A stretch of DNA of 64,000 nucleotides from Spirochaetota bacterium (GTDB lineage Bacteria > Spirochaetota > Spirochaetia > SZUA-6). The notes beneath the pieces are model-generated. The model was not told the origin of the DNA and ran no database searches. It saw only the letters and a program-made list of their open reading frames with translations. A program made the position numbers and the translations under genes. Below are positions 34,020 to 50,074 of this stretch, one piece after another; within the stretch, counting starts at the first letter, position 1; the number at the start of each line of letters is the position of its first letter. The stretch is taken from positions 20,096-84,095 of the forward strand of contig JAADHF010000045.1 of the NCBI GenBank assembly GCA_013151965.1, in the 5' to 3' direction.

Positions 34020-34058
34020 AAAAGTATATTTGTGGGTTATTTAAGGAGATGCATAGAG

Positions 34059-35171
34059 ATGTTTATTACAAAACCGACTCTTCTTGTGGATACCGCGCGA
34101 GTAAGGAGAAATATAAAAAGAATTGCCGGCAAGGCGCTTATCAGCGGAGTTGTTTTCCGGCCTCATTTTAAAACGCATCAATCGTCCGGAATAGGAGAAT
34201 TCTTTAAGGAAGAGGGGGTTGCTTCGATTGCCGTATCGAGTATGGATATGGCCCTGTACTTTGCAGATTCGGGCTGGAAAGACATCACGGTTGCCTTTCC
34301 GGTTAATATTCGTCAAATAGATGTAATAAACAGCCTTGCCGGAAGAATAAATCTGCATCTGCTTGTAGAATCGGAACAAACAGTAAATTTTCTGAAAAAT
34401 AATCTTCTCTATCCTGTTGATCTGTGGATAGAGATCGATGTCGGACACAGACGCACGGGAATAGATTGTTCCGATGGAGAAGCGGTTGCAAAGCTTGCCG
34501 GATTAATAAGAAGTTCCCGGAAGTTTAAATTTTCAGGTTTGCTAACCCATGCCGGAAATACATACAGGGCATCCGGTAACGAAGAAATAAAAGAGATATA
34601 CCGTGATATGGTGGATAAACTGTATAAATTAAAAGAGAACCTGAGAAGGAATGGGGTTTCCGATATTGCCCTGTCTATCGGAGATACACCTACAGCAGGT
34701 ATTGTTGCGGACTTTTCAGAGGTCGATGAAATTCGTCCGGGTAACTTTGTATTTTACGATGTAATGCAGTATCTGCTGGGTATCTGTAAAGAGGAGGACA
34801 TTGCTGTTGCCGTAGCATGTCCGGTTGTGGCAAAGTATGGAGGACGGGGAGAAGTTGTGGTTTACGGAGGTGCAGTGCATCTGTCAAAGGAGAGAGCGAG
34901 TCTTAAAAACGGAACGGTAATATACGGCTTGGTTTCGCTGGCTGACGGTGATACTATGGAAGACGGATGGGGGAAGGTATTAAGGAACAGCTATGTCAGG
35001 GCGGTAAGTCAGGAACATGGCGTTATAAAAATAGCAGAGGAGTACTTTGATAAGATTAAAATCGGCGACCTTTTATATATACTTCCTGTGCACAGCTGTT
35101 TAACGGTTAATCTCATGGGAGGCTGTCTAAGTTTATCCGGCAGATATTTTAAGGTGATGGGTCATGGATAG
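34059..35171 (+). CDS. D-threonine aldolase / D-serine dehydratase-like PLP enzyme (alanine racemase fold)
   Basis: A 370-aa protein. The N-terminal TIM-barrel domain begins ITKPTLLVDTARVRRNIKRIAGKA, with the PLP lysine in FRPHFKTHQ. Later motifs include IEIDVGHRRTGID, FSGLLTHAGNTYRA, IGDTPTAG and EIRPGNFVFYDVMQ. The C-terminal domain ends LYILPVHSCLTVNLMGG, whose HSC resembles the metal site (His/Cys) of D-threonine aldolase and D-serine dehydratase enzymes. It probably acts on a D-3-hydroxy-amino acid. The track start GTG 34032 lies before the ribosome-binding site AAGGAG; ATG 34059 follows it by 10 nt. It overlaps the next HAD gene by 8 bp. Confidence 0.83.
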   Translation: MFITKPTLLVDTARVRRNIKRIAGKALISGVVFRPHFKTHQSSGIGEFFKEEGVASIAVSSMDMALYFADSGWKDITVAFPVNIRQIDVINSLAGRINLHLLVESEQTVNFLKNNLLYPVDLWIEIDVGHRRTGIDCSDGEAVAKLAGLIRSSRKFKFSGLLTHAGNTYRASGNEEIKEIYRDMVDKLYKLKENLRRNGVSDIALSIGDTPTAGIVADFSEVDEIRPGNFVFYDVMQYLLGICKEEDIAVAVACPVVAKYGGRGEVVVYGGAVHLSKERASLKNGTVIYGLVSLADGDTMEDGWGKVLRNSYVRAVSQEHGVIKIAEEYFDKIKIGDLLYILPVHSCLTVNLMGGCLSLSGRYFKVMGHG

Positions 35172-36192
35172 AGAAAACCTTGTGCAGATAATAAGGAATT
35201 TAAGTATTCCTCTAAATCCGGTTCCTGTGGGTGAGCTTCCTGACTGGGCTTTAATGCGCGGCCGGCGGAATAATACTGCAGGGGAAGGTTCCGCAATCTC
35301 CTTCGAAGGTTCGTATCCGGAGGCTGTATTGTTTGATGTTTACGGTACTCTTTTTATTTCCGGGTCCGGAGACATAGGCACAGGTGAGGATGCAGACGAT
35401 ATCGAGGCGCTCGGGAAAATAGTGCTTGATGCGGTTTACAAATTTACCGGATCAGATGGTCTTAAGCCTGTTTATAATGAATTCCTTGCCGGAAGGGTGG
35501 GGATGTATGTTAAGAAACTGCTTCCCGAAACAATTAGGAAAACACACAGGAAGCAGAGAAATACCGGTATTACCTATCCGGAAGTGGATATACGGATGAT
35601 ATGGATCGAAGTGATAACCGCCCTTGCCGCTCTTAACATTAAAGGTTTTCCTCTTAAAGCCGGGGAACTTAAATCTTTATCTGTCTGTGGATTGGAAACT
35701 TCTGTTATCGAGGAGCTTGCCGTTCGATATGAGTGTATTGTTAATCCCGTATGGCCGATGCCGGGAAGCGGTACTCTGCTTAAAAAGTTAACGGACATGG
35801 GAGTTATAACAGGTATTGTATCCAATGCCCAGTTTTATACCCCTCTTATATTTAAAGCGCTGCTTGGAGGTTCTCCGGAAGAATTGGGTTTTAAAGATAA
35901 GCTTCTAATCTTTTCCTATGCCTTAAGCGAAGCCAAACCGTCGACAGAATTGTTCCGGAGAGTAACGGAGACTTTAAAGGCCGATTTTGGTATTTCCGGT
36001 AAAAATGTTCTCTATGTCGGCAACGATATCTTAAATGATATTAAACCTGCAAAGGAATCGGGTTTAAGAACAGCTCTCTTCGCAGGTGACGAAAGATCTT
36101 TAAGATTAAGGGAGGATATCCCCGCATGCAGAAATATCTTCCCTGATATGGTTATAAAAGATCTCCGTGAAATAGAGCGGTTGTTTTTATGA
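35164..36192 (+). CDS. HAD-superfamily hydrolase
   Basis: A 342-aa hydrolase-like protein. The N-terminal 50 residues are not part of the HAD core. Motif I is VLFDVYGTLF (nucleophile Asp), motif II GIVSNAQF, motif III Lys in SEAKPSTELF and motif IV LYVGNDILNDI. A cap domain of about 130 aa lies between motifs I and II. It resembles phosphoglycolate-phosphatase/haloacid-dehalogenase types, but the substrate is unknown. It is translationally coupled (8-bp overlap) to the D-threonine-aldolase-like gene, suggesting they act together. The stop is 1 bp from the stop of the convergent ilvC. Confidence 0.8.
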   Translation: MDRENLVQIIRNLSIPLNPVPVGELPDWALMRGRRNNTAGEGSAISFEGSYPEAVLFDVYGTLFISGSGDIGTGEDADDIEALGKIVLDAVYKFTGSDGLKPVYNEFLAGRVGMYVKKLLPETIRKTHRKQRNTGITYPEVDIRMIWIEVITALAALNIKGFPLKAGELKSLSVCGLETSVIEELAVRYECIVNPVWPMPGSGTLLKKLTDMGVITGIVSNAQFYTPLIFKALLGGSPEELGFKDKLLIFSYALSEAKPSTELFRRVTETLKADFGISGKNVLYVGNDILNDIKPAKESGLRTALFAGDERSLRLREDIPACRNIFPDMVIKDLREIERLFL

Positions 36193-39434: not shown

Positions 39435-39524
39435 CTTAATGTAAAGCCTGTTTCCTTTAGGCAAGTAATTGAATACAATTAAGAGAATATCAGAAGAGAA
39501 TATTTGTATAAAGGAGAAAAAACT

Positions 39525-40358
39525 ATGAGGCTTAAGAGCGGGGATAAGCAGAGGGAACCCTTCCACTGGAGAACCGGTATTGCGTATAAAACAAAAGACA
39601 GGATTGTTATTCGTGGTTATGATCTTAATAATCTGATAGGGAATGTAGATTTCGCATCCATGGCATATCTTGTGCTTACGGGTGAACTGCCGCCGGAGCA
39701 ATACAGGCTTATGGTAAATGCGCTTCTTGTTTCTATGGCGGAGCATGCCTTTTCGCCTTCATCTGTTTCCGCGCGGTTTGTGGCATCCGGGGGAGTTCCT
39801 TTAAATGTTGCAGTTGCAGGCGGGGTTATGACTATGGGAGAAAGGCATGCCTCTGCCGATATTGCCGCCGGAATTTTTAAAGAGGGGATTAGGAGATGCG
39901 GGTATGAAAAAATAAGTATAGAGAAATGTGCGGAATTAATTGTCGCTGAGTATAAAAGAGACAGTAGAATACTTAACGGATTTCATCATCCCCAGCATAT
40001 CAAAGATCCGAGGGTTAAACGGCTCTTTGAGCTTTCGGAGGAGTATAAAATTACCGGTGAACATCAGAAGCTTGCAGAAGCTATGGAAAGGGCAACCGGA
40101 AAGGTGTATGGGAGAGTTCTGTATCTTAATGCCCCCGGGGCTTTTGCTGCAATCGGCTGTGATATGGGGCTTACGCCGGAACAGTTAAAGGGCCTTATTA
40201 TACTCTCACGTACGGTATCTCTGGCGGCCCATAGTATAGAGGAGATGGAACGGGAGAAGGGCTGGAGGGCTTCGGGTAAAAGTAAGATTGTTCAGCCTCT
40301 GGAGTTGAGTATGCAGCTTCCGGAGTACTACGACGGGCCGCCCGACAGGTCGTTATAA
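39525..40358 (+). CDS. Citrate synthase-family protein, citryl-CoA lyase-like
   Basis: A 277-aa protein, much shorter than citrate synthase (about 380-430 aa). The N-terminal segment RTGIAYKTKDRIVIRGYDLNNLIGNVDFASMAYLVLTGELP and the histidine motif GFHHPQHIKDPRVKRLFELS match the citryl-CoA lyase/citrate-synthase-like family, and LSRTVSLAAHSIEEMEREKGWR carries the C-terminal His region. It may cleave citryl-CoA or a related acyl-CoA, or condense acetyl-CoA with an oxoacid. AAAGGAG 8 nt before ATG 39525 favours this start over 39504. It overlaps the convergent HAD gene by 6 bp. Confidence 0.8.
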   Translation: MRLKSGDKQREPFHWRTGIAYKTKDRIVIRGYDLNNLIGNVDFASMAYLVLTGELPPEQYRLMVNALLVSMAEHAFSPSSVSARFVASGGVPLNVAVAGGVMTMGERHASADIAAGIFKEGIRRCGYEKISIEKCAELIVAEYKRDSRILNGFHHPQHIKDPRVKRLFELSEEYKITGEHQKLAEAMERATGKVYGRVLYLNAPGAFAAIGCDMGLTPEQLKGLIILSRTVSLAAHSIEEMEREKGWRASGKSKIVQPLELSMQLPEYYDGPPDRSL

Positions 40359-41129
40359 GAGGATGTCCCGGGAGAAATATTTCACAAGCTCCTCCGCATG
40401 AATTACACCGTTAAAGCTTAAGTTTTTGCCTCCCTTCTTTAAGACACCCTTTTCTCCGTCCGGATCGCCGAGGCACGAAACAATAATATCGGCCTCATCG
40501 AGGTTTTCTTTTTCCGTATAAACATTTGTAGTTGCGATAACATTTAACCCGGCAGCTTTTGCCGCCAGTACTCCGTTTCTGGAGTCCTCTATAACAACAC
40601 ATTCTTCGGGTTTTAATCCGGTTTTCTTTAAAGCAAGCAGATAAATTTCAGGATCGGGTTTTTTATTCTTAACAACGTCACCTGCCAGTACAAAATCGAA
40701 TTTAATGTCCTTCAGTATCCCGCAGGTAACTGCATGGGCTGCCTTTTCATTGGAAGTAGTGCATACCCCGAGTTTTAAACCGAGTCTGTTTATTTCTTTC
40801 ATTATCCTTTTAATTCCCGGGCGCAGCGGAAGCTGTCCGCTCTCTATCAGCTCGATAAAGATCTCTGTTTTTCGTTTGTGGAGTTTCTTAATTAGTTTGT
40901 CTTCTTCCTCCGGTTTTACGGGAACTCCGAACCCCTTTGTATGCAGATAATGTCTCATCCTTTCCTTGCCGCCTGCTATCCGGAGGAGGCCGTGATACTC
41001 ATCCACGTCCCACTCTATATTATAGCCGAATTCCTTAAAGGTTCTGTTAAAAGCAACCCTGTGCCCGTCACGTTCCGTGTCGATAATAACACCGTCCTGA
41101 TCAAAAAAGAATGCCCTTACCGCAGCCAT
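40353..41129 (-). CDS. HAD-IA hydrolase, beta-phosphoglucomutase/sugar-phosphatase-like
   Basis: A 258-aa protein. Motif I is FFFDQDGVIIDTERDGHRVAFNRTF (Asp-x-Asp-Gly), motif II GVCTTSNEK, motif III Lys in VKNKKPDPEIYL and motif IV CVVIEDSRNGVLAAKAAGL. This is the CbbY/GPH/beta-PGM type with a helical cap, usually acting on sugar phosphates or phosphoglycolate. AAGGAG precedes the ATG. It is the last gene of the minus-strand locus headed by the AfuA-like transporter and lies 26 bp after the aminotransferase. I infer it dephosphorylates a pathway intermediate. Confidence 0.87.
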   Translation of the reverse strand: MAAVRAFFFDQDGVIIDTERDGHRVAFNRTFKEFGYNIEWDVDEYHGLLRIAGGKERMRHYLHTKGFGVPVKPEEEDKLIKKLHKRKTEIFIELIESGQLPLRPGIKRIMKEINRLGLKLGVCTTSNEKAAHAVTCGILKDIKFDFVLAGDVVKNKKPDPEIYLLALKKTGLKPEECVVIEDSRNGVLAAKAAGLNVIATTNVYTEKENLDEADIIVSCLGDPDGEKGVLKKGGKNLSFNGVIHAEELVKYFSRDILL

Positions 41130-41155
41130 CGTTATCTCCTTGTTCCTGTTATGTT

Positions 41156-42259
41156 TTAACCGGTGATAAAATCCTTTATAATTTTCACGGCCATTTTGTT
41201 CTCTTCCTCCGTACCCACCGTAATGCGGAAGAATCCGTCGCTTCCGTACATCCCGGGCTGAGGACGCAGTATAACACCGTTTTTCTGTGCATGGGCAACA
41301 ATATCATTGCCCTTTTTGCCCGTGCCCTTCGCATCGAATAGTACATAGTTTCCATGGGAATGGAAAATTGTAAGTCCGTCTATTTCCCCGAGGCTTTTTT
41401 CTATAAACTCTATCTGGCTGTTAATGAAGTTAACCCTTATCTTTAAGCCTTCGGTATCCTCGAATGCTGCAATGGCCGCTCCCATCGTTAAAGTGCTGAC
41501 GTTCCATGGTATAAGGACGGCTGATATTTTAGAGACCACATCTTTATTGCTTAAGAGATACCCGAACCTTAAACCTGCAAGGCCGTATGCCTTGGAAAGC
41601 GTGCGGGTGATCATTACATTTGGGTAATCCTTAATCATACCGATTTTGGATTTCTTAAGCCCTGCAAACTCCACATAGGCTTCGTCTATTACAAAGGGTA
41701 TACCTGTTTCTGCAATGCGGACAAAATCCTTATCATCCATAAAATTCCCGGTGGGATTGTTCGGATTGGCAATAACTATGATTTTTGTTTCAGGTGTAAC
41801 AGCCCTTAGAATGGAATCCGCATCGAATAGAAGTTCGCCGTTTTTATAAATCATGGGAACGGATATGAGCTTTCCTCCGATAACGGCACATCTGAGTTTG
41901 TAAATTCCGAAACATGGGGTATGCTGAATAATCTCTTCCCCGGGCTGTACAAGACTTCTCCAGATCATATCGTATACTTCACTGGAGCCGTTTCCCAGCA
42001 TTACATTTTCAGGTCCGTCAAGTCCGTTTATCTCCGCTATCTTTGTACGTACTGTCAGTCCCTGGTCGGAGTACCTGTTGCCGAGTTTCGAATATTCGGC
42101 TATGGCCTTCAGGACCTTTTGGGACGGTTCGAGCGGATTTTCATTGGACATCATCCTGTGCAGTGACCGGTTTTTCCACGCCAGCTCGATATGGGGAGAT
42201 ACATACATTTTTAACCCGTCGAGCCATGGCACGAAGTAGTCGCTCATTTTTGTCTTCAT
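41156..42259 (-). CDS. PLP aminotransferase, histidinol-phosphate-aminotransferase-like
   Basis: A 367-aa fold-type I class I/II aminotransferase. HisC-like features are SNENPLEPSQKVLKAIAEY, LGNGSSEVYDMI, ANPNNPTGNFM, FVIDEAYVEFAG, the PLP lysine in TRTLSKAYGLAGLRFGY, and the C-terminal Arg in FFRITVGTEEEN. AAGGAG lies 8 nt before the ATG. No other his genes are nearby. It lies inside a catabolic-looking locus (transporter, GntR, aldolase, HAD phosphatases), so it more likely transaminates a phosphorylated or related amino compound than makes histidine. I therefore give no hisC symbol. Confidence 0.83.
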   Translation of the reverse strand: MKTKMSDYFVPWLDGLKMYVSPHIELAWKNRSLHRMMSNENPLEPSQKVLKAIAEYSKLGNRYSDQGLTVRTKIAEINGLDGPENVMLGNGSSEVYDMIWRSLVQPGEEIIQHTPCFGIYKLRCAVIGGKLISVPMIYKNGELLFDADSILRAVTPETKIIVIANPNNPTGNFMDDKDFVRIAETGIPFVIDEAYVEFAGLKKSKIGMIKDYPNVMITRTLSKAYGLAGLRFGYLLSNKDVVSKISAVLIPWNVSTLTMGAAIAAFEDTEGLKIRVNFINSQIEFIEKSLGEIDGLTIFHSHGNYVLFDAKGTGKKGNDIVAHAQKNGVILRPQPGMYGSDGFFRITVGTEEENKMAVKIIKDFITG

Positions 42260-42279
42260 TAATCTTGCTCCTTGTTGTT

Positions 42280-43155
42280 TTATGCTTTTCCGGCAGATCC
42301 GAAGAGATCTATCCAGGATTCTATTCTTTTGATAATTGCTTCTTTCATCGCCTTATCAATTTTGCCCGGGTTGTACTCATCCCTGTGAGAGGAGATATAA
42401 TCGTATGTGGAATCGATAAGAACGTGTTTTAGGTCAGTGGAAACATTAAACTTTGATCCTCCGAGTGAGATGAGTTTTTTTACCACATCCGGCTGTAATC
42501 CTGTTCCTCCGTGTATTACTATTGGTATGGTTGGAGTTTTCCCGTTAAAAAGGTCAAAGATTATTTTAAGCCTGTCGAAATCGAGTTTGGGATTTTTCGT
42601 TTTGTAGATACCATGAGCCGTTCCTATTGCAGGTGCAAAAAGATCCACACCTGTTTTCTCCACAAATTCAATGGCCTTGTCCGGGTCGCAGAGTGCCGCT
42701 TCGTTTTCGGCAACCTTTATCTGATCCTCTACACCCGATACTGTTCCGAGTTCTCCTTCTACTGTAATACTTCCGAGATTATGGACATAATCGCATACAT
42801 ATTTTGTCTGCCGTACATTTTCCCCGAATACCTGTTTGGAGGCATCGATCATGATGTTTGTATAGCCTGCATCCGCGCATTCCTTACAGTACTCTGCGTC
42901 GGTTGAATGGTCTAAGTGAAGGCAGATTGGTATGGGTGCCGATTCCGCAAGCGTTCTGTAAACTGCGGAAAAAACCTTCGGGCCGATAAACTTAGAGGGA
43001 GTTACCGAGGTCTGAATAATAAGAGGCGCATTTTTGTTGACAGCAGCTTCTATGACTGCTTCCATCTGAATAATGTTTGTTACATTAAAAGCGCCGACGG
43101 CATACCGGCCTGCCGTTGCTTTTAACAGTATTTCTTTTGCATTAACGATCGACAT
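42280..43155 (-). CDS. Class II fructose-bisphosphate/tagatose-bisphosphate-type aldolase
   Basis: A 291-aa zinc-dependent aldolase. Family motifs are YAVGAFNVTNIIQMEAVIEAA, ICLHLDHSTDAEYCKECADAGYTNIMIDAS (zinc His and catalytic Asp), VEGELGTVSGVED, LFAPAIGTAHGIYK (zinc His), IPIVIHGGTGLQPDVVKKLI (zinc His in HGG) and GGSKFNVSTDLKH. It cleaves a ketose bisphosphate or related phosphorylated ketose to DHAP plus an aldehyde. Candidates include KbaY/GatY, FbaA and IolJ types, and sequence reading cannot separate them. AGGAG lies 7 nt before the ATG. Its place beside GntR and a transporter argues for a catabolic, not glycolytic, copy. Confidence 0.87.
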   Translation of the reverse strand: MSIVNAKEILLKATAGRYAVGAFNVTNIIQMEAVIEAAVNKNAPLIIQTSVTPSKFIGPKVFSAVYRTLAESAPIPICLHLDHSTDAEYCKECADAGYTNIMIDASKQVFGENVRQTKYVCDYVHNLGSITVEGELGTVSGVEDQIKVAENEAALCDPDKAIEFVEKTGVDLFAPAIGTAHGIYKTKNPKLDFDRLKIIFDLFNGKTPTIPIVIHGGTGLQPDVVKKLISLGGSKFNVSTDLKHVLIDSTYDYISSHRDEYNPGKIDKAMKEAIIKRIESWIDLFGSAGKA

Positions 43156-43182
43156 TTCTGTTCTCCTATTAAATATGTTGTT

Positions 43183-43953
43183 TTATTTAACTTCTCCCGA
43201 ACTCATTTCTCTCCTGTATTCACCTGCTTCAACTGTAAATACATACCGGTCACCCCTGTAATACGACTGGAGGATTTCGATGCAGATGTCCCCGCTTGTA
43301 TATGCAAGGCTTTCCAGCATAATACATGGAATAGCTCTGCTGATTTGTAATCCCTGTGCTATCTCCTTTGCCGGTTTTACGGCTTTGATAGTCTGGATTG
43401 AATGATGCAGGTCGGCGTTGAAATTCTCTGTAAGAAGTTTATACATGGAGCCCTTTATCTCAATTTCCATTAATCCCGAAAACTTCTCGTATGAGTAGAA
43501 CTGACGCTCGAGCAGGAAGGGTATTTTATCGGCAATACGGATTCTTTCCAGCTTTATTATCTTTGCTCCTGTTTTTACCATTAATTTTTCAGCAAGACCG
43601 GCAGGGGCTTTTATAATGTCTTTTGCAGTGATTATATCTTCGATGTTAACGTGGTTCATCTCGAAATCGTCCACAAAACTTGTCATCTTCCCAAGCCGGT
43701 GTATCGGGTGAAGTGTGGTTGTCCGCTTTACAAATGTACCGACCCCTTTCTGTTTTTCCAGCAGTCCTTTCTGAACAAGTACGCTTATTGCCTGGCGTAT
43801 CGTATTCCGGTTAATGCGGAAATCTGCAGCGAGCTTCCCTTCCGATGGTATTTTAGAGCTCACTTTGTATATCCCGTCCTTAATTCTCCTTTCGAGAATA
43901 TTTGCAAGCTGGAGATATATCGGTATCGGATTGTTCTTGTCCACTGTTTCCAT
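43183..43953 (-). CDS. GntR/HutC-family transcriptional regulator with UTRA domain
   Basis: A 256-aa repressor-type regulator. The N-terminal winged HTH is typical (IPIYLQLANILERRIKDGIYKVSSKIPSEGKLAADFRINRNTIRQAISVLVQKGLLEKQKGVGTFV), followed by a UTRA ligand domain (LERIRIADKIPFLLERQFYSYEKFSGL ... MLESLAYTSGDICIEILQSYYRGDRYVF). UTRA domains often sense phosphorylated sugars or phosphonate-related compounds. A TTGACC/TATATA promoter directly upstream overlaps a 13-bp sequence that recurs upstream of the binding-protein gene, fitting autoregulation and control of the whole locus. Confidence 0.9.
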   Translation of the reverse strand: METVDKNNPIPIYLQLANILERRIKDGIYKVSSKIPSEGKLAADFRINRNTIRQAISVLVQKGLLEKQKGVGTFVKRTTTLHPIHRLGKMTSFVDDFEMNHVNIEDIITAKDIIKAPAGLAEKLMVKTGAKIIKLERIRIADKIPFLLERQFYSYEKFSGLMEIEIKGSMYKLLTENFNADLHHSIQTIKAVKPAKEIAQGLQISRAIPCIMLESLAYTSGDICIEILQSYYRGDRYVFTVEAGEYRREMSSGEVK

Positions 43954-43968
43954 ATTACCTGTCTACCT

Positions 43969-44004
43969 ATCTACCTATATATACAAATATTGGCTTAAGG
44001 TCAA
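43969..44004 (-). promoter_or_regulatory. gntR promoter with overlapping candidate operator
   Basis: On the minus strand TTGACC, a 17-bp spacer and TATATA (-10 at 43976-43981) precede gntR. TATATAGGTAGAT (43969-43981) overlaps the -10 box and continues as AGGTAGACAGGT, a near-tandem AGGTAGA repeat. The same 13-mer occurs at 48205-48217 upstream of the binding-protein gene. The 92-bp gap holds nothing else. Confidence 0.5.
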
Positions 44005-44045
44005 GTTTATTATTTAAAACTTTTAAAAAAACCATTAAGCTGGTA

Positions 44046-45758
44046 CTACTCGGATTCTGCAACTACCTTTAGTCCTCTCTTTTTAAAGAGCAGTGCGAAT
44101 ATGGCAAGCATTACTATGACAATGATTATTATAAGTGTAGCCATCGCTGCAGAGGGTCCTTCCTGGCCGTCTTTTTCGAGGTTTATGACCGCTATGGAAG
44201 CGAGATGTACATCCGGGGATATCAGGAATATAACGGCACTGATGGTAACCATGCTTCTCATGAAGTAATAGATAAGATTGCTCATAAATGAGATCCGGTT
44301 TAAGGGGAAGATAATCCGAAGAAAGGTTCTCGTAGTGTTTGCGCCGAGGCTCGTTGCCGCTTCATCCATGGATTTATCTATGTTCTTCATGTTGGAGATA
44401 CTGGAAAGCGTGCCCAGTGTAAAATTTGTAATGATAACATTTATAATAATAATCAGAGGTTTTCCGTACAGTATATTATCCAGATTAAGGAACCGAGTGT
44501 TAAAAATCAAAATATACCCAAGGCCCATAACCAGACCCGGAATTGCTGCCGGAATAACAGAAAAGAGGTATAACGGCTGGGCAAAAAAAGGTTTTTTCTT
44601 TTCGATAATATATCCGTTTAAGATGGTTAGAAAGGCTCCGAAAAAACCGACAAAAAGTGCAATTTTAAGACTTGTCCAGAGTACACTGATACCGCCAGGA
44701 ATTTTAAACTGATAATGACTCGTTGTAAAGGACCAGTTGTACATCCAGACCTTTATAAAAGACTTGAAAACAATTACACCGATTACAGAGAGAAGGATGC
44801 CGGCAATGGTCCAGCTGTATGCCGTAAAGCCGTATTTTTTTAACGGACGTGACGGCGGCAGCTGAGGTTTTGCCTGGCCGCTGATTAAGGAGTGGCTTTT
44901 CTTTGTAAAGTAGTAATTCAACAGGAATGCGATAATCGACGGGACAAGAAGAACGACTGCGATTGTAGTTCCCAGATCAAAACGCTGCATTCCTATAACC
45001 TGCAGGTAAATTTCCGTTGATAAAACATTGTAACCTCTGCCTATTATAATCGGGTTTCCAAAGTCTGTAATGGCAAGATTAAAAACCAGGGCTGCAGCGG
45101 AAAATATGCCGTACCTGGCAGTGGGTACTGTTATCTTAAAAAAGGTTGTGACTTCCGAAGCGCCGAGGCTCGATGCCGCTTCGTCGAGCCTGGAATCCAC
45201 CGCAGAGAGAGTTGTGTAAAGAATGACCATGGCATGGGGGAAACAGTAAAGAACCTCGGAAATAATTATTCCCGTAGGCCCGTAAATGTTCCACTCCACA
45301 TTTAGAAGACCTGCCGTTATAAGTCCGTTGGAACCAAACAGAGATATTAATGCCATTGCCTGCAGCAGTGACGGTGCAATAAGGGGAGTCATGGCAACAT
45401 AGTACAGAGCCTTTTTCCATTTGATTGTTGTTCTTGTTAACCCGTATGCAAAGAAAAAAGCGAGTGTCGTGGTAATCACCATAGACCAGACTGCTATCCA
45501 CAGACTGTGATAGAGTGACTGAACTATAGCCGGTTTACTGAAATAATTGGTAAAATTAGCCAGTGTTAATCTGCCTAAAAATTCATGTTTCCTCGGATCG
45601 TATGCAGTCATACTGAGCCTGAGAATATTTAACACCGGAAGAAGCATGAAAACCAGAAGGAAGAGTCCGATTAATCCTCCCACAACATAGATGAGATATT
45701 TATCATTCAGTATTTTTTTGCCCTTCGGCTGAATATTTTCTGCTGTTATTGTTGACAT
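44046..45758 (-). CDS. ABC transporter permease, double-length FbpB/AfuB type
   Basis: A 570-aa inner-membrane protein with about twelve helices in two BPD_transp_1 halves. Each half has an ATPase-contacting EAA loop: DEAASSLGASEVTTFFKITVP and DEAATSLGANTTRTFLRIIFP. Fused permeases of this kind serve ferric-iron (FbpB), hexose/sugar-phosphate (AfuB) and 2-aminoethylphosphonate importers. GGAG lies 6 nt before the ATG. It lies 13 bp downstream of the ATPase gene and 92 bp upstream of gntR. Together with the ATPase and binding protein it forms a complete importer. Confidence 0.9.
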   Translation of the reverse strand: MSTITAENIQPKGKKILNDKYLIYVVGGLIGLFLLVFMLLPVLNILRLSMTAYDPRKHEFLGRLTLANFTNYFSKPAIVQSLYHSLWIAVWSMVITTTLAFFFAYGLTRTTIKWKKALYYVAMTPLIAPSLLQAMALISLFGSNGLITAGLLNVEWNIYGPTGIIISEVLYCFPHAMVILYTTLSAVDSRLDEAASSLGASEVTTFFKITVPTARYGIFSAAALVFNLAITDFGNPIIIGRGYNVLSTEIYLQVIGMQRFDLGTTIAVVLLVPSIIAFLLNYYFTKKSHSLISGQAKPQLPPSRPLKKYGFTAYSWTIAGILLSVIGVIVFKSFIKVWMYNWSFTTSHYQFKIPGGISVLWTSLKIALFVGFFGAFLTILNGYIIEKKKPFFAQPLYLFSVIPAAIPGLVMGLGYILIFNTRFLNLDNILYGKPLIIIINVIITNFTLGTLSSISNMKNIDKSMDEAATSLGANTTRTFLRIIFPLNRISFMSNLIYYFMRSMVTISAVIFLISPDVHLASIAVINLEKDGQEGPSAAMATLIIIIVIVMLAIFALLFKKRGLKVVAESE

Positions 45759-45771
45759 AATCTACTCCGCT

Positions 45772-46842
45772 CTACTCTATTCCGTATACTATAAAAGCAT
45801 CGGGCGGAAGGTATAGTTCTATATTTTCACCCCGGGATATCTTCATATCCGTAAACCGTTTTTCGAGAATATCAACTATAACATCCTGTGTTTTTAGCCG
45901 GACAACGAGCCTGACGATTAAACCGAGAAATACGATAACAATGAGTTTGCCGGTAACCGTGTTCCCTTTTTTATGTTTGCCTGCTTCCCTGCTGTTTACG
46001 ATTTCGATTTTTTCCGGCCGTATTGCGGCAGTAACATTCCCTTCCGTGATTCCATTGGTATTTGCTACTGTAAAGGTAAGTTCATGGCCGTCTATTTTAC
46101 CCTGCTTTAATTTACCTTCAAAAAAATTGCTCGTTCCCACAAAATCGGCAACATACCGCGACCTCGGGTTTTTATAAATAGCAACGGGCTTATCTATCTG
46201 TTCGATTATTCCATGGTTCATTACGACAACCCTGTCGGAAATGGAAAGTGCTTCTTCCTGGTCATGAGTTACATATATGGTTGTTATACCGAGATCTACC
46301 TGTAGCTGTTTAATTTCCGCTCTGAGCTTTACACGAATTTTTGCATCCAGGGCACTTAAAGGTTCATCCAGGAGAATAACCTCCGGCCTGGGGGCAAGTG
46401 CACGTGCTAATGCAACTCTCTGCTGCATTCCTCCCGAAAGCTCTGCCGGATATTTATGTTTATGTTCTTTAAGCCCGACTATATCGAGAAGTTCATCGAC
46501 CCTGGGCTGGATTTTATCTTTCGGATACCTGTGCATTTTAAGGCCGAAGGCTACATTTTCATTTACTCTCATATGCGGAAACAGAGCGTAGGACTGGAAA
46601 ACAATTCCGAAATTCCTTTGCTGCGGTATAAGGCGGTTAATGACTTTTCCGTTATATACAATTTCACCTGCCGAGGGTATTTCGAATCCTGCTACCATCC
46701 TGAGAGTGGTTGTTTTACCGCACCCCGAAGGTCCCAAAAGTGTTACGAATTCTCCCTCTTTTATTTCGAGTTTTATTTTGTTAACTGCATACAGATTATC
46801 AAATTTTTTTGATACATCCTGTAAAATCAAATTCTTAGCCAT
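45772..46842 (-). CDS. ABC transporter ATP-binding protein (FbpC/AfuC/PotA type)
   Basis: A 356-aa ATPase with Walker [11 protein letters not shown]-loop [11 protein letters not shown], signature [15 protein letters not shown], Walker [13 protein letters not shown] and switch His in VTHDQEEAL. The C-terminal TOBE-like domain ([13 protein letters not shown] ... [11 protein letters not shown]) marks the MOI/CUT1-like subfamily. It energises import through the double permease. It follows the binding-protein gene across a 78-bp gap that contains a strong hairpin, which would let the binding protein be expressed above the ATPase. Confidence 0.92.
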
Positions 46843-46867
46843 ATATGTACCTGCCGATAGATTAATT

Positions 46868-46897
46868 TTAACGCCGGTTATATTTAACCGGCGTTAA
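46868..46897 (-). other. Intercistronic hairpin between binding-protein and ATPase genes
   Basis: A perfect 13-bp inverted repeat, TTAACGCCGGTTA / TAACCGGCGTTAA, with a TATT loop. On the transcribed (minus) strand it is followed by AAAATT, not a U-run, so it is not a classical terminator. Such hairpins in binding-protein operons commonly protect the upstream mRNA and reduce downstream expression. Confidence 0.65.
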
Positions 46898-46920
46898 TGT
46901 GTTTTTTAAAGGTTTAAACT

Positions 46921-47961
46921 CTATTCCGGTTTGGTTTTATCCTGGAATAGGCTTGTCCATTTATTTACAATTTCAATTTTATGCTGTGATGTCCACTTGA
47001 AATCCATGGGGAAGAGCTTTACATCTTTTGGATCCGGCAGGGGAATCGTGCTCTGCGACTTGATGCCAGGGAGTGTGACCATGATTTTGTACTTTGAATA
47101 TGCCTTCATGGCATCTTCGGACAAAGTCCAGTCTAAGAATTTTTTTGCGGCTGCAGGATGTTTGGCTCCTTTTAACAGGGCATTCGCTTCGAGTTCATAA
47201 CCGCTTCCTTCCGACGGAAACACCATTTCTACCGGATAGCCGGCTGATATCTGTTTTGCAACCCTGTACCCGAAAGAGGCTCCCACCGCAATTTCACCCT
47301 TGGAGGCAATTTTAGCAGGAGCGGAACCTGAGTTTGTATATTCTACTATATTTTTGTTGAGTTTCTTTAAGAATTCCCAGCCGTCTTCCTTTCCTTCTTT
47401 GATTCCCTTCCAGAGAAGAATGGAAGAAACCTGCAGGTAGCCTGTTCCCGAACTTCCGGGATTGGGCATGATAACCTCGTTTTTATATTCCGGTTTTGTA
47501 AGGTCTGTCCAGCTGGTCGGTTTATCCAGTCCTTTTTTTGCCAGTCTGTCTTTGTTAACAGCAAAAGCCGCAACGTACATATCGATTGCCGCCCAGTATC
47601 CGGCAGGATCTTTAAACTGTGCAGGGAGTTTATCATAACCCGCAGGTTTGTAGGGCTGGAAAAGGTCCTGTAAAAGCGCCAGCGCTGTTACTGCAGTTCC
47701 CCATACAAGGTCGGCCTGGGGATTTTCTCTTTCCGCAAGCAGCTTGGCAGAAACTTCTCCTGTCGAGTATCTTACCCATTTAATGTCCAGATTGGGAAGC
47801 TCTTTCTTTGCAAGAGCCAGATAATCAGCAGTTTCATCCTCTTCCAGTGCGGTATAAATTACCACCTCACCGGATCCTTTTTCCTGCTTCCCGCCTGCAA
47901 AAACAAAGGCCGGAAGAAGCAGAAAAACTACAAGAAGTACCATTAAAAGTTTCTTATGCAT
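46921..47961 (-). CDS. ABC transporter substrate-binding protein (FbpA/AfuA/phosphonate-like)
   Basis: A 346-aa periplasmic protein. The signal peptide is MHKKLLMVLLVVFLLLPAFVFA; no lipobox Cys is present. The mature part (GEVVIYTALEEDETADYLALAKKELPNLDIKWVRYSTGEVSAKLLAERENPQADLVWGT ... PNPGSSGTGYLQVSSILLW ... SAPAKIASKGEIAVGASFGY) matches the family of ferric-iron, hexose-phosphate (AfuA) and 2-aminoethylphosphonate binding proteins. Neighbouring aldolase and three HAD phosphatases favour a phosphorylated organic ligand over iron; this is inference. AAGGAGG precedes the ATG, and a promoter lies 27-54 bp upstream. Confidence 0.87.
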   Translation of the reverse strand: MHKKLLMVLLVVFLLLPAFVFAGGKQEKGSGEVVIYTALEEDETADYLALAKKELPNLDIKWVRYSTGEVSAKLLAERENPQADLVWGTAVTALALLQDLFQPYKPAGYDKLPAQFKDPAGYWAAIDMYVAAFAVNKDRLAKKGLDKPTSWTDLTKPEYKNEVIMPNPGSSGTGYLQVSSILLWKGIKEGKEDGWEFLKKLNKNIVEYTNSGSAPAKIASKGEIAVGASFGYRVAKQISAGYPVEMVFPSEGSGYELEANALLKGAKHPAAAKKFLDWTLSEDAMKAYSKYKIMVTLPGIKSQSTIPLPDPKDVKLFPMDFKWTSQHKIEIVNKWTSLFQDKTKPE

Positions 47962-47987
47962 AGAAACCTCCTTAAGATTTTTTTATT

Positions 47988-48015
47988 ATTTTAAAGTATA
48001 ATTATTTAAAGTCAA
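47988..48015 (-). promoter_or_regulatory. Putative promoter of the binding-protein/transport operon
   Basis: On the minus strand TTGACT, a 16-bp spacer and TAAAAT, followed by AAGGAGG and the ATG at 47961. The remainder of the 280-bp gap (47962-48241) is AT-rich and holds no gene on either strand. Confidence 0.45.
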
Positions 48016-48185
48016 GTTTTTAAAATTTTATTTAAGCCGTCTTTAATATTGATAGTTTAATAAATACAAATAATAGTATAATAATACAGTTATCTATATT
48101 AAATCACGGGAATTGTTAAAAATATGAATATATATACTTTAAACTCGTATTTGGTTTAATGTATTACAATTATCCGATATTGTAT

Positions 48186-48231
48186 GATAGATAGATATCT
48201 ATACATCTACCTATATACCTATACCCGGAAA
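48186..48231 (-). promoter_or_regulatory. Candidate GntR operator region upstream of the transport genes
   Basis: The block contains TATATAGGTAGAT (48205-48217, minus strand), identical to the sequence over the gntR -10 box, next to a second AGGTA unit and the perfect 12-bp palindrome ATAGATATCTAT. It lies about 190 bp upstream of the nearest good promoter, so it would act at a distance or with an unseen promoter. Confidence 0.4.
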
Positions 48232-48241
48232 GTATATTTAT

Positions 48242-49264
48242 TCAAATTATTTTTTTTAGTTCTTCGAGGGAGGTTATGGAATAAATTCCGTTTTTTTTAC
48301 GGTGGTCTCCGGCAAACGGTAATTCCGGCTCTTCTTCTCTGTCCCGGCCGGTAAAAAGAATACCCTGGTAGTTGTACTTTGATTGCTCGGAAGCTTTCAT
48401 ATCATCCGGCATATCTCCTATAAAGAAACATTTTTTTATATCCCCGCCTGTCTTTTTTGCTATTTCATCGAGCATAAACGGATTCGGTTTGCTTAAGGAA
48501 ACTTTTTTCTTTTCCGTCTGTAAAATCCTCGCCTCCTCCGCCCTGCAATGATCTAATGTCAGTACAAAGGAGAAGTAGTGTTCTATTCCGAATCTTTTTA
48601 ATGTGTAAAGGGCTTCCGCTTTAGGCCGTCCGGTTGCTATGGCTAAAATACCGGTTTCGGATAAACTATCTAAAATTTCTGTATTGATAATAAGAGTTTC
48701 CCTGTCCATCAGCCCTTTGTTTTTATGGAAAAGAGGTTCCGAATTGTATGTTTCAAAGAATATTTTCTCCCCGAGATAGATTTCCTGAAATATCTGTTTA
48801 ATTAGATTGCCCGATCCCACTTCTCCTGTTGACAGCTTCCGTATAACAGGATCTATTCTTTTACCATTGATTTTAAATAATGCCGTAAGAGGATTTTTAT
48901 TTTTTTTAAGGAAGCAAATAAGAGGCCGGATATCCCAGTTTTCCGTGATGCTTCGAAGCAGAAGACAGGTAGAATCAAATTTATGGAATTCATATACTTT
49001 AAGGTCCTTGTTGATATCCCTGTTTATTGCAGATAAGAGCAGAGAGATGGTCACATATGTCAGATCCCAGTCGTTGTTTAAGCCCCCGCTTTCTTTAACC
49101 CGGGATAAATCATCCATCAAAAACGGCTGTCCGGGCAGCATACTGCCGTTTTTTGAATCTTTTAAGAATACAACAGCAGTTTCTCTTACTACAGCACGGT
49201 ACGATTTCGATACATCAACTATAACACCGTCCATATCAAATACTATTAATCTGCTTTTTTTCAT
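48242..49264 (-). CDS. HAD-IA superfamily hydrolase with long cap insert
   Basis: A 340-aa protein. Motif I is LIVFDMDGVIVDVSKSYRAVVRETA, motif II ILAIATGRPKAEAL, motif III Lys in SLSKPNPFML and motif IV CFFIGDMPDDMKAS. Between motifs I and II lies about 170 aa of cap, including GGLNNDWDLTYV, an NNDW motif I associate with a distinct HAD-IA subgroup. It probably dephosphorylates a metabolite related to this locus. It lies 19 bp after the HAD-IB gene and 280 bp before the binding-protein gene. Start ATG 49264 lacks a strong ribosome-binding site. Confidence 0.8.
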   Translation of the reverse strand: MKKSRLIVFDMDGVIVDVSKSYRAVVRETAVVFLKDSKNGSMLPGQPFLMDDLSRVKESGGLNNDWDLTYVTISLLLSAINRDINKDLKVYEFHKFDSTCLLLRSITENWDIRPLICFLKKNKNPLTALFKINGKRIDPVIRKLSTGEVGSGNLIKQIFQEIYLGEKIFFETYNSEPLFHKNKGLMDRETLIINTEILDSLSETGILAIATGRPKAEALYTLKRFGIEHYFSFVLTLDHCRAEEARILQTEKKKVSLSKPNPFMLDEIAKKTGGDIKKCFFIGDMPDDMKASEQSKYNYQGILFTGRDREEEPELPFAGDHRKKNGIYSITSLEELKKII

Positions 49265-49283
49265 GTTCTATTCCGGGCTTTTC

Positions 49284-49988
49284 TTAAGGATTTTGTGTAA
49301 ATTTCAGGTTCCCGCGGTATATTCCTTTAACATAGGGAATAATATCAGCAATTTCAGATATAATACTATAGCGGCAGCCTGAAGAACCCGCTTTTTCGTT
49401 GTTGTTTCTTCTGATCACTACCGGAAAAACCGACCAGTTAAGAAGCGGAATATCTGTCGGTCCGTCACCTACGACTATCGTATCTTCCGGGTTAAAACCC
49501 ATAGAGATGACCGCATTAAGTTTATCGGCCGGTTTTAATGTCCGGTACTCGATGCCGGAAATTACGTGGTCTTTAAAGATAAATCTATTGGCTACTACAT
49601 CGGAGAAACACTTAAGAATACCGGATTTATGCAATACAGCCCTGCTTAAATTTTCCGTGCCGCAGGAAATAAGAACCTGTTTATGACCGGCACGCTGTAA
49701 TGCCTTTAGAGTATTTCTGTCCTCCATAGATATCCGTCCGGCCAATTCTTCGGTAACCCTTTCTATAATATCTTCCTTTGTCCCCTTTGCAGCCCATAGA
49801 TAGAGGGGTTTAAAGTAGTGGCCTATCCATCCTTTCATATCCGCATATATGATTGCCCTGGTAAGTAGTCCCTTAAGGTTTAAAACATGCGGGTGCATTT
49901 CTTTAACTATACAGGATAGAAGACTCTGCTCGCTGTCGTGCGGTGTAAGTGGTAAAATCGTGCCGTCAAAATCCCATACTATATTCAT
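49284..49988 (-). CDS. HAD-IB phosphatase (phosphoserine-phosphatase-like)
   Basis: A 234-aa protein when started at ATG 49988 (MNIVWDFDGTILPLTPHDSE); the track adds 13 residues with no family support. Motif I WDFDGTI, motif II VLISCGTENLSR, motif III Lys in LKPADKLNAVIS, motif IV TIVVGDGPTDIPLL. The four-helix cap between motifs I and II fits PSP-type HAD-IB enzymes. Exact substrate unknown. It is the first of two HAD genes upstream of the transport operon and is divergent from the lipoprotein gene. Together the two may encode sequential or alternative phosphatases. Confidence 0.82.
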   Translation of the reverse strand: MNIVWDFDGTILPLTPHDSEQSLLSCIVKEMHPHVLNLKGLLTRAIIYADMKGWIGHYFKPLYLWAAKGTKEDIIERVTEELAGRISMEDRNTLKALQRAGHKQVLISCGTENLSRAVLHKSGILKCFSDVVANRFIFKDHVISGIEYRTLKPADKLNAVISMGFNPEDTIVVGDGPTDIPLLNWSVFPVVIRRNNNEKAGSSGCRYSIISEIADIIPYVKGIYRGNLKFTQNP

Positions 49989-50074
49989 CCGGAATAGTAT
50001 CTCATCCGTATCCGGGGTTCTTGTCAATATATTTTCTTGACTATTTAAAAGAAAAGATATTAATTTAGAGGCCT

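Follow-up and report, generated by a model that had tools for sequence, protein, structure and literature searches.

A run of nine open reading frames (ORFs) on the minus strand, reaching from position 49988 down to 40353, was analyzed in a 64,000-nt stretch of contig JAADHF010000045.1 from a Spirochaetota bacterium (assembly GCA_013151965.1); this whole stretch is referred to as the window. We consider it rather likely that the run is a phosphoethanolamine (PEA) assimilation operon that would yield xylulose-5-phosphate. Genes, conservation, co-occurrence, family affinities and a shared upstream motif are direct observations, and all substrates and reactions are predicted. Read along the minus strand, the run encodes a HAD-IB phosphatase (49284-49988; HAD motifs present, with a possible longer TTG start at 50027), a second HAD protein with an NNDW motif (48242-49264; TIGR01548-like, 88 bits against a cut-off of 140), a periplasmic binding protein of the phnS2 (TIGR03261) kind (46921-47961), an ABC ATPase (45772-46842; closest NCBIfam model PhnT2, TIGR03265), a double-length permease (44046-45758; closest NCBIfam model PhnU2, TIGR03262), a GntR/UTRA regulator (43183-43953; PhnF/LSA1692-like, under both cut-offs), a class II aldolase of the fructose-bisphosphate aldolase (FBA) type (42280-43155), a HisC-like aminotransferase (41156-42259) and a CbbY-like HAD-IA phosphatase (40353-41129). 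An earlier reading made from the letters alone (the sequence-only reading) had described such a minus-strand run; ORF inspection found all nine genes, and Pfam and NCBIfam back every family. Intergenic spacing inside the two gene runs is 13-92 bp, except that an AT-rich gap of 280 bp separates the NNDW HAD gene from that of the binding protein.

To gather relatives of the locus, GTDB genomes were scanned with the aminotransferase family and genome searches were added; taxa follow the record titles, and nearly all records are metagenome-assembled genomes, on whose short contigs neighboring genes can be missed. The whole run recurs in the same order in a member of another genus of the same family (G003), with 79-85% identity for the importer and enzymes, 63% for GntR and 38-46% for the two upstream HADs. 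In a member of another family (G018), the importer and enzymes share 70-76% identity, the HAD-IB gene is present and the NNDW HAD gene is absent. Loci of the aminotransferase family were found in Spirochaetota, Chloroflexota, Planctomycetota (Sedimentisphaerales), Atribacterota and Gottesmanbacteria, and the aldolase, the HisC-like aminotransferase and CbbY (hereafter the trio) travel together in the first three of these. Since the same order recurs in G003 and G018 and the enzyme core in other phyla, the gene run is not a product of chance. The possibility, raised in the sequence-only reading, that the gene set is conserved in no other genome clearly fails, and comparison of genome neighborhoods reveals the aminotransferase with the aldolase across phyla, as well as the NNDW HAD beside pathway genes in some relatives.

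An aminotransferase with at least 60% identity was found at 22 loci, window included. Both the aldolase and the CbbY-like HAD are present in 13 of the 19 loci having both flanks and both are absent in the other 6, with no discordant locus (aldolase without CbbY or the reverse) among the 19; the probability of such perfect concordance by chance is 1/27132 (hand calculation, uncorrected for kinship). In each of the six loci lacking this pair, a transaldolase-like gene (PF00923) with a conserved Schiff-base Lys lies near the aminotransferase gene instead. At one locus (L072), a transketolase gene adjoins the transaldolase and HisC genes, and a transketolase is also encoded in the window's genome.

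When the protein encoded at 40353-41129 was compared with all PDB sequences, the scores for Arabidopsis CbbYA (4uav; 219 bits at 48% identity) and Rhodobacter CbbY (4uar; 147 bits at 42% identity) were far above those for the next families, TM1254 (81 bits) and beta-phosphoglucomutase (69 bits). A 14-member profile of this HAD family gave 259 and 164 bits to the Arabidopsis and Rhodobacter enzymes, respectively, versus 81 for the next family. D10, D12 and G53-G54-K55-E56-R57 are invariant in the 14 members and align with both CbbYs, and the phosphonatase model reached only 41.9 of 220 bits. The protein is closest to CbbY, with a predicted role as a phosphatase of D-xylulose-1,5-bisphosphate (XuBP), and not of the beta-phosphoglucomutase type to which the sequence-only reading had assigned it. 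CbbY is selective for XuBP, from which it removes the 1-phosphate, and Arabidopsis CbbYA prefers this substrate about 5000-fold over ribulose-1,5-bisphosphate (PMC10212915). The Rubisco large subunit was not found in the window's genome (G000), G003 and G018, and a role of the CbbY-like HAD in Rubisco repair was rejected on this ground. Lacking Rubisco, these genomes must have another source of XuBP, for which the neighboring aldolase would be the obvious candidate; in vitro, XuBP has been made through enzyme-catalyzed aldol addition of dihydroxyacetone phosphate (DHAP) and glycolaldehyde phosphate (PMC10212915). The locus enzyme thus resembles CbbY of the Calvin cycle in identity, catalytic Asp pair, GGKER cap motif and proposed reaction, whereas XuBP, a Rubisco side product there, would here be an on-path intermediate supplied by the aldolase. 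We use the name 'CbbY-like' and do not file the protein as CbbY because the association with Rubisco and a cbb operon is missing, which is a difference of context and not of the enzyme.

The class II ketose-bisphosphate aldolase motifs HLDH, GTAHG and HGGTG are invariant in the trio aldolases. In all 11 of them, NPGK (DPGK in L070) replaces the DPRK motif, which is kept in the PDB aldolases 3q94 and 1rv8 and in the other FBA that the window's genome encodes, and Trp281 occupies a position where the PDB relatives carry Lys or Arg. Class IIB fructose/tagatose-bisphosphate aldolases and the locus enzyme share the His residues that bind Zn and the region of the catalytic Asp, and they differ at DPRK and at this Lys/Arg. 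In FBAs, the Arg of the DPRK motif (Arg280 region) binds the sugar 6-phosphate; because this motif is altered, the acceptor aldehyde of the trio aldolase is probably not glyceraldehyde-3-phosphate. Condensation, and not cleavage, is the most likely reaction of the locus aldolase. Fructose-type aldolases give a 3S,4R diol, which from a C2 aldehyde phosphate is XuBP, exactly what CbbY acts on. Transaldolase products have this configuration too, so that xylulose-5-phosphate would form directly, and loci with transaldolase only would for this reason need no phosphatase.

The aminotransferase keeps Lys223, Asp192, Tyr195 and Arg345, to which we assign roles by analogy with HisC. It scores 274.6 bits against the hisC model TIGR01141 (cut-off 276.55), and a better HisC (332.5 bits) is encoded elsewhere in the window's genome, on contig C13. 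HisC-like enzymes act on several amino-alcohol phosphates. This breadth and the altered 6-phosphate site of the aldolase would suit an alternative in which the aminotransferase handles another such compound (e.g., serinol phosphate or 3-aminopropanol phosphate) and the aldolase and CbbY a different ketose bisphosphate; we regard this as unlikely, in view of the selectivity of CbbY relatives for XuBP (PMC10212915) and of the kinase and demethylation neighbors described below, which favor the ethanolamine series. Serinol phosphate in particular was rejected as the substrate, since it would yield DHAP directly and leave the aldolase and CbbY without purpose.

Several neighbors point to ethanolamine compounds as the source of the aminotransferase substrate. 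A choline/ethanolamine kinase gene (PF01633, E 1.7e-35) directly follows the last enzyme gene in G018 (L064), and kinase genes are also present at L058 (91% identical to the G018 one), at L060 and L104 (57-62%) and, in a weaker form, at L070 (28%). In L058, L060, L064 and L104, genes for a TRAP importer occur along with the kinase gene. An ortholog (57%) is encoded away from the locus in the window's genome, on contig C40. An MttB-superfamily methyltransferase and a corrinoid protein in L066 and an oxidoreductase of the DAO-GcvT demethylase type in L067 were confirmed by Pfam, and L063, L070 and L075 show similar demethylation-type ORFs; these genes of the Chloroflexota loci fit a conversion of phosphocholine to PEA. 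At L059 (2584-4747), genes for PhnX and PhnW, both above their NCBIfam cut-offs, are convergent with aldolase-aminotransferase-CbbY, which suggests that a single organism uses 2-aminoethylphosphonate (AEP) and aminoethyl phosphate in parallel. No match to EutB (ethanolamine ammonia-lyase) was obtained in G000, G003, G018 and G021.

These neighbors also bear on a variant with the same chemistry and another entry, in which ethanolamine, choline or phosphocholine would be the natural substrate, or the importer would serve mainly AEP, and PEA would be mainly internal. In its favor are the kinase together with a TRAP importer at several loci, the Chloroflexota demethylation genes, PhnWX beside L059 and the PhnSTU2-type importer, whereas no PhnW above cut-off exists in the window's genome, and under AEP entry no role for CbbY follows, as the trio cannot break the carbon-phosphorus bond; the core enzymes would in any case be unchanged. 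We give this variant a rather small probability. Degradation of AEP by the trio itself was rejected, because none of its enzymes breaks the C-P bond and PhnW and PhnX are separate genes in L059.

Related genes were also observed at other loci. In G097, HisC-like paralogs (33-34%) adjoin an FGGY carbohydrate kinase gene at L048 (2711-7092) and L055 (7857-10554), L048 additionally carrying GntR and triosephosphate-isomerase genes; this arrangement resembles a further route for amino alcohols or amino polyols, e.g., from serinol phosphate to DHAP. Distant choline-kinase-like paralogs (31-33%) lie near branched-chain-type ABC importer genes in G018, at L083 (444-1334) and L084 (6741-7637), with MttB-like ORFs in both and a corrinoid-protein-like ORF in L084, and are possibly parts of further phosphocholine or amino-alcohol systems. 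An 874-aa protein with a HisC/CobD-like part is encoded among cobalamin-synthesis-like genes in the window's genome (L105, contig C62, 1478-4102) and is probably ordinary.

As for the importer, the best NCBIfam models are phnS2 for the binding protein (346.6 bits, cut-off 392.75), PhnU2 for the permease (472.9, cut-off 593.25) and PhnT2 for the ATPase (425, cut-off 457.7). In an alignment with AfuA, the phosphate-contact positions are kept in the locus protein (Thr for Ser37, unchanged Ser148-Gly149-Thr150), and the positions of His205 and Asp206 hold Tyr and Arg. In AfuA, the former residues contact the phosphate and the latter pair the sugar, and mutation of His205/Asp206 abolishes binding of glucose-6-phosphate (PMC4546632, PMC8427247); AepX, which belongs to the wider family, binds AEP (Kd 23 nM; PMC8316502). 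The locus protein shares the fold family and the phosphate-binding Ser/Gly/Thr residues with the AfuABC and P5PAB organophosphate importers, whereas the sugar-contact pair of AfuA is replaced; the importer resembles the PhnSTU2/AEP type more than AfuABC. PEA equals AEP plus one oxygen, and the predicted, most likely ligand of the importer is PEA. The earlier expectation of an importer for a phosphorylated or amino compound agrees with this assignment, and the AfuA-type label is corrected toward PhnSTU2.

The sequence-only reading had favored uptake of a phosphorylated sugar or amino compound, which transamination, aldol cleavage and dephosphorylation would then process. In the version with a sugar or amino sugar, this is backed by the family-level resemblance of the importer, aldolase and HADs. 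Against it, the pair that AfuA needs for sugar-phosphate binding is Tyr/Arg here, the kinase, PhnWX and demethylation neighbors do not fit a sugar, and the replacement by transaldolase is left unexplained. We therefore judge it very improbable; from the earlier proposal, the amino compound and the three types of reaction are retained, and the sugar and the cleavage direction are given up. A ferric iron importer lying by accident beside unrelated metabolic genes is hardly credible: distant PDB homologs are labeled iron-binding proteins, but the binding-protein sequence lacks a Tyr-Tyr pair like the one that binds iron in FbpA, a motif is common to the importer and the enzymes, and the importer and aminotransferase stay paired even in the distant G105 and G086. 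In the latter two genomes (L051, 5647-11233, and L052), the importer shows 53-60% identity, the aminotransferase is 50% identical, and neither aldolase, CbbY nor transaldolase is present; this arrangement may be a reduced version of the system or serve a related substrate.

The motif common to both halves, the direct repeat ATATAGGTAGAYNNGTAKAYA, has exactly two sites at no more than one mismatch in the 3.6-Mb genome, one immediately 5' of gntR (43960-43980, minus strand, ATATAGGTAGATAGGTAGACA) and one 5' of the binding-protein gene (48196-48216, minus strand, ATATAGGTAGATGTATAGATA). The reversed-pattern control had no sites in the genome. As the motif was derived from the same upstream regions, its presence there reflects selection, and its absence elsewhere in the genome is the independent part. 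A palindrome search of the upstream regions found no shared palindrome. Close versions precede gntR in L056, L062, L064, L073, L102 and L103 and the aminotransferase gene in L060 and L065. Because the motif sits only before gntR and the binding-protein gene, the importer and enzyme halves look co-regulated, and it is likely the GntR operator, predicted to join both halves in one regulon; through the two operators, the GntR/UTRA protein would control gntR-aldolase-aminotransferase-CbbY plus the importer.

In the proposed route, PEA, a product of membrane-lipid breakdown, would be imported by the PhnSTU2-type ABC transporter, and in relatives the choline/ethanolamine kinase could form it from ethanolamine. 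The aminotransferase would transfer the amino group of PEA to 2-oxoglutarate, leaving glycolaldehyde phosphate, which the aldolase would join with DHAP to give XuBP; removal of its 1-phosphate by the CbbY-like phosphatase would then deliver xylulose-5-phosphate into the pentose phosphate pathway. The net conversion would be PEA, 2-oxoglutarate and DHAP to xylulose-5-phosphate, glutamate and Pi, and three PEA could give two triose phosphates with no carbon loss and no need for O2 or B12. Where the aldolase and CbbY are absent, the transaldolase-like enzyme would lead from glycolaldehyde phosphate to xylulose-5-phosphate in a single step. On balance, it seems probable that this is an undescribed natural pathway, present in several phyla whose members are mostly uncultured, by which the C2 unit of PEA (and via it of ethanolamine and choline) is converted to xylulose-5-phosphate in two interchangeable versions. 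No published route of this kind was found in the open-access literature (no preprints covered), in agreement with the earlier remark that no known pathway has exactly this gene set; the novelty lies in the predicted pathway, every enzyme family being already known.

Several observations weigh against the PEA route. L066 and L067 carry both the aldolase/CbbY pair and the transaldolase-like gene, and G105 and G086 have the importer and aminotransferase without aldolase or CbbY. No kinase gene adjoins the window locus, and a kinase search detected none in G003; moreover, the kinase family includes other alcohol kinases, with the best NCBIfam match, GntI, below its cut-off. The demethylation genes are linked to the loci by position only. 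The importer scores lie below the phnS2/T2/U2 cut-offs, so that the ligand is not fixed by family. Finally, the core route does not explain the HAD-IB and NNDW HAD proteins.

For the HAD-IB protein, the nearest solved structure is a phosphoserine phosphatase (weak, E 1.3e-4), and the NNDW HAD has only weak generic HAD matches among solved structures; comparison of the latter with PHROGs yielded nothing informative. HAD-IB is linked to the system in G003, G018, G034, G001, G013 and G021, and clear matches of the NNDW HAD in relatives adjoin HAD-IB and pathway genes. Both are found at L034, L037, L102 and L103, and at L104 they are placed between the aminotransferase and kinase genes. They belong to the system, and at the same time are less conserved and dispensable, many loci lacking both, in addition to the G018 locus without the NNDW HAD. 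As a low-confidence guess, they might serve overflow or repair dephosphorylation, e.g., of glycolaldehyde phosphate, phosphoglycolate or surplus PEA.

A citrate-synthase-like gene (39504-40358, plus strand) is convergent with the nine-gene run, adjoins the locus only in close relatives (L056 and L057) and is absent beside the G018 copy. It was rejected as a locus member for its opposite strand and narrowly kept adjacency, and the membership considered possible in the sequence-only reading is not upheld; its product matches citryl-CoA lyase models at or below cut-off. In the 280 bp gap, a promoter-like TTGACT-16-TAAAAT (47988-48015, minus strand) lies about 27 bp before the binding-protein start, a consensus match only, the number of promoter-like sites in the region being not above that in shuffles. 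A 13-pair stem-loop (46868-46897, strand unassigned; pattern match only) between the binding-protein and ATPase genes is a possible processing or attenuation element, perhaps keeping the binding-protein mRNA in excess. Elsewhere in the window (34032-36192, plus strand), a 379-aa ORF resembling a pyridoxal-phosphate-dependent amino-acid racemase/aldolase-type enzyme overlaps a 342-aa HAD-like ORF by 8 bases, apparently as a separate two-gene unit.

Compared with AEP utilization (PhnSTU/AepXVW/AepSTU with PhnW and PhnX), the locus has in common a binding-protein importer for a zwitterionic aminoethyl-phosphorus compound, HAD phosphatases, GntR/UTRA control in some cases and, as proposed, an initial transamination to a phosphorus-bearing C2 aldehyde. 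The systems differ in that PhnW is a class V enzyme, while the locus has a HisC-like class I/II aminotransferase and no PhnX, and in that the aldehyde is split at the C-P bond there and would be joined to DHAP here. The Eut and ethanolamine-phosphate phospho-lyase routes release acetaldehyde and ammonia. They likewise serve the catabolism of ethanolamine or its phosphate, whereas at this locus glutamate would carry off the nitrogen and pentose phosphate the carbon.

Ethanolamine and choline head groups are abundant sources of lipid carbon and nitrogen. If the proposed pathway is true, the C-O-P unit would be retained and built into sugar without carbon loss, O2 or B12, which would be useful to sediment anaerobes. 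The Rubisco inhibitor XuBP would be a genuine intermediate of metabolism with a physiological role, and phosphatases of the CbbY type would have an additional function beyond the Calvin cycle, in Rubisco-free settings. Some genes annotated as 'histidinol-phosphate aminotransferase', 'fructose-bisphosphate aldolase' or 'beta-phosphoglucomutase' would then be something else, and the trio would offer a ready natural module for channeling C2 compounds into the pentose phosphate pathway.

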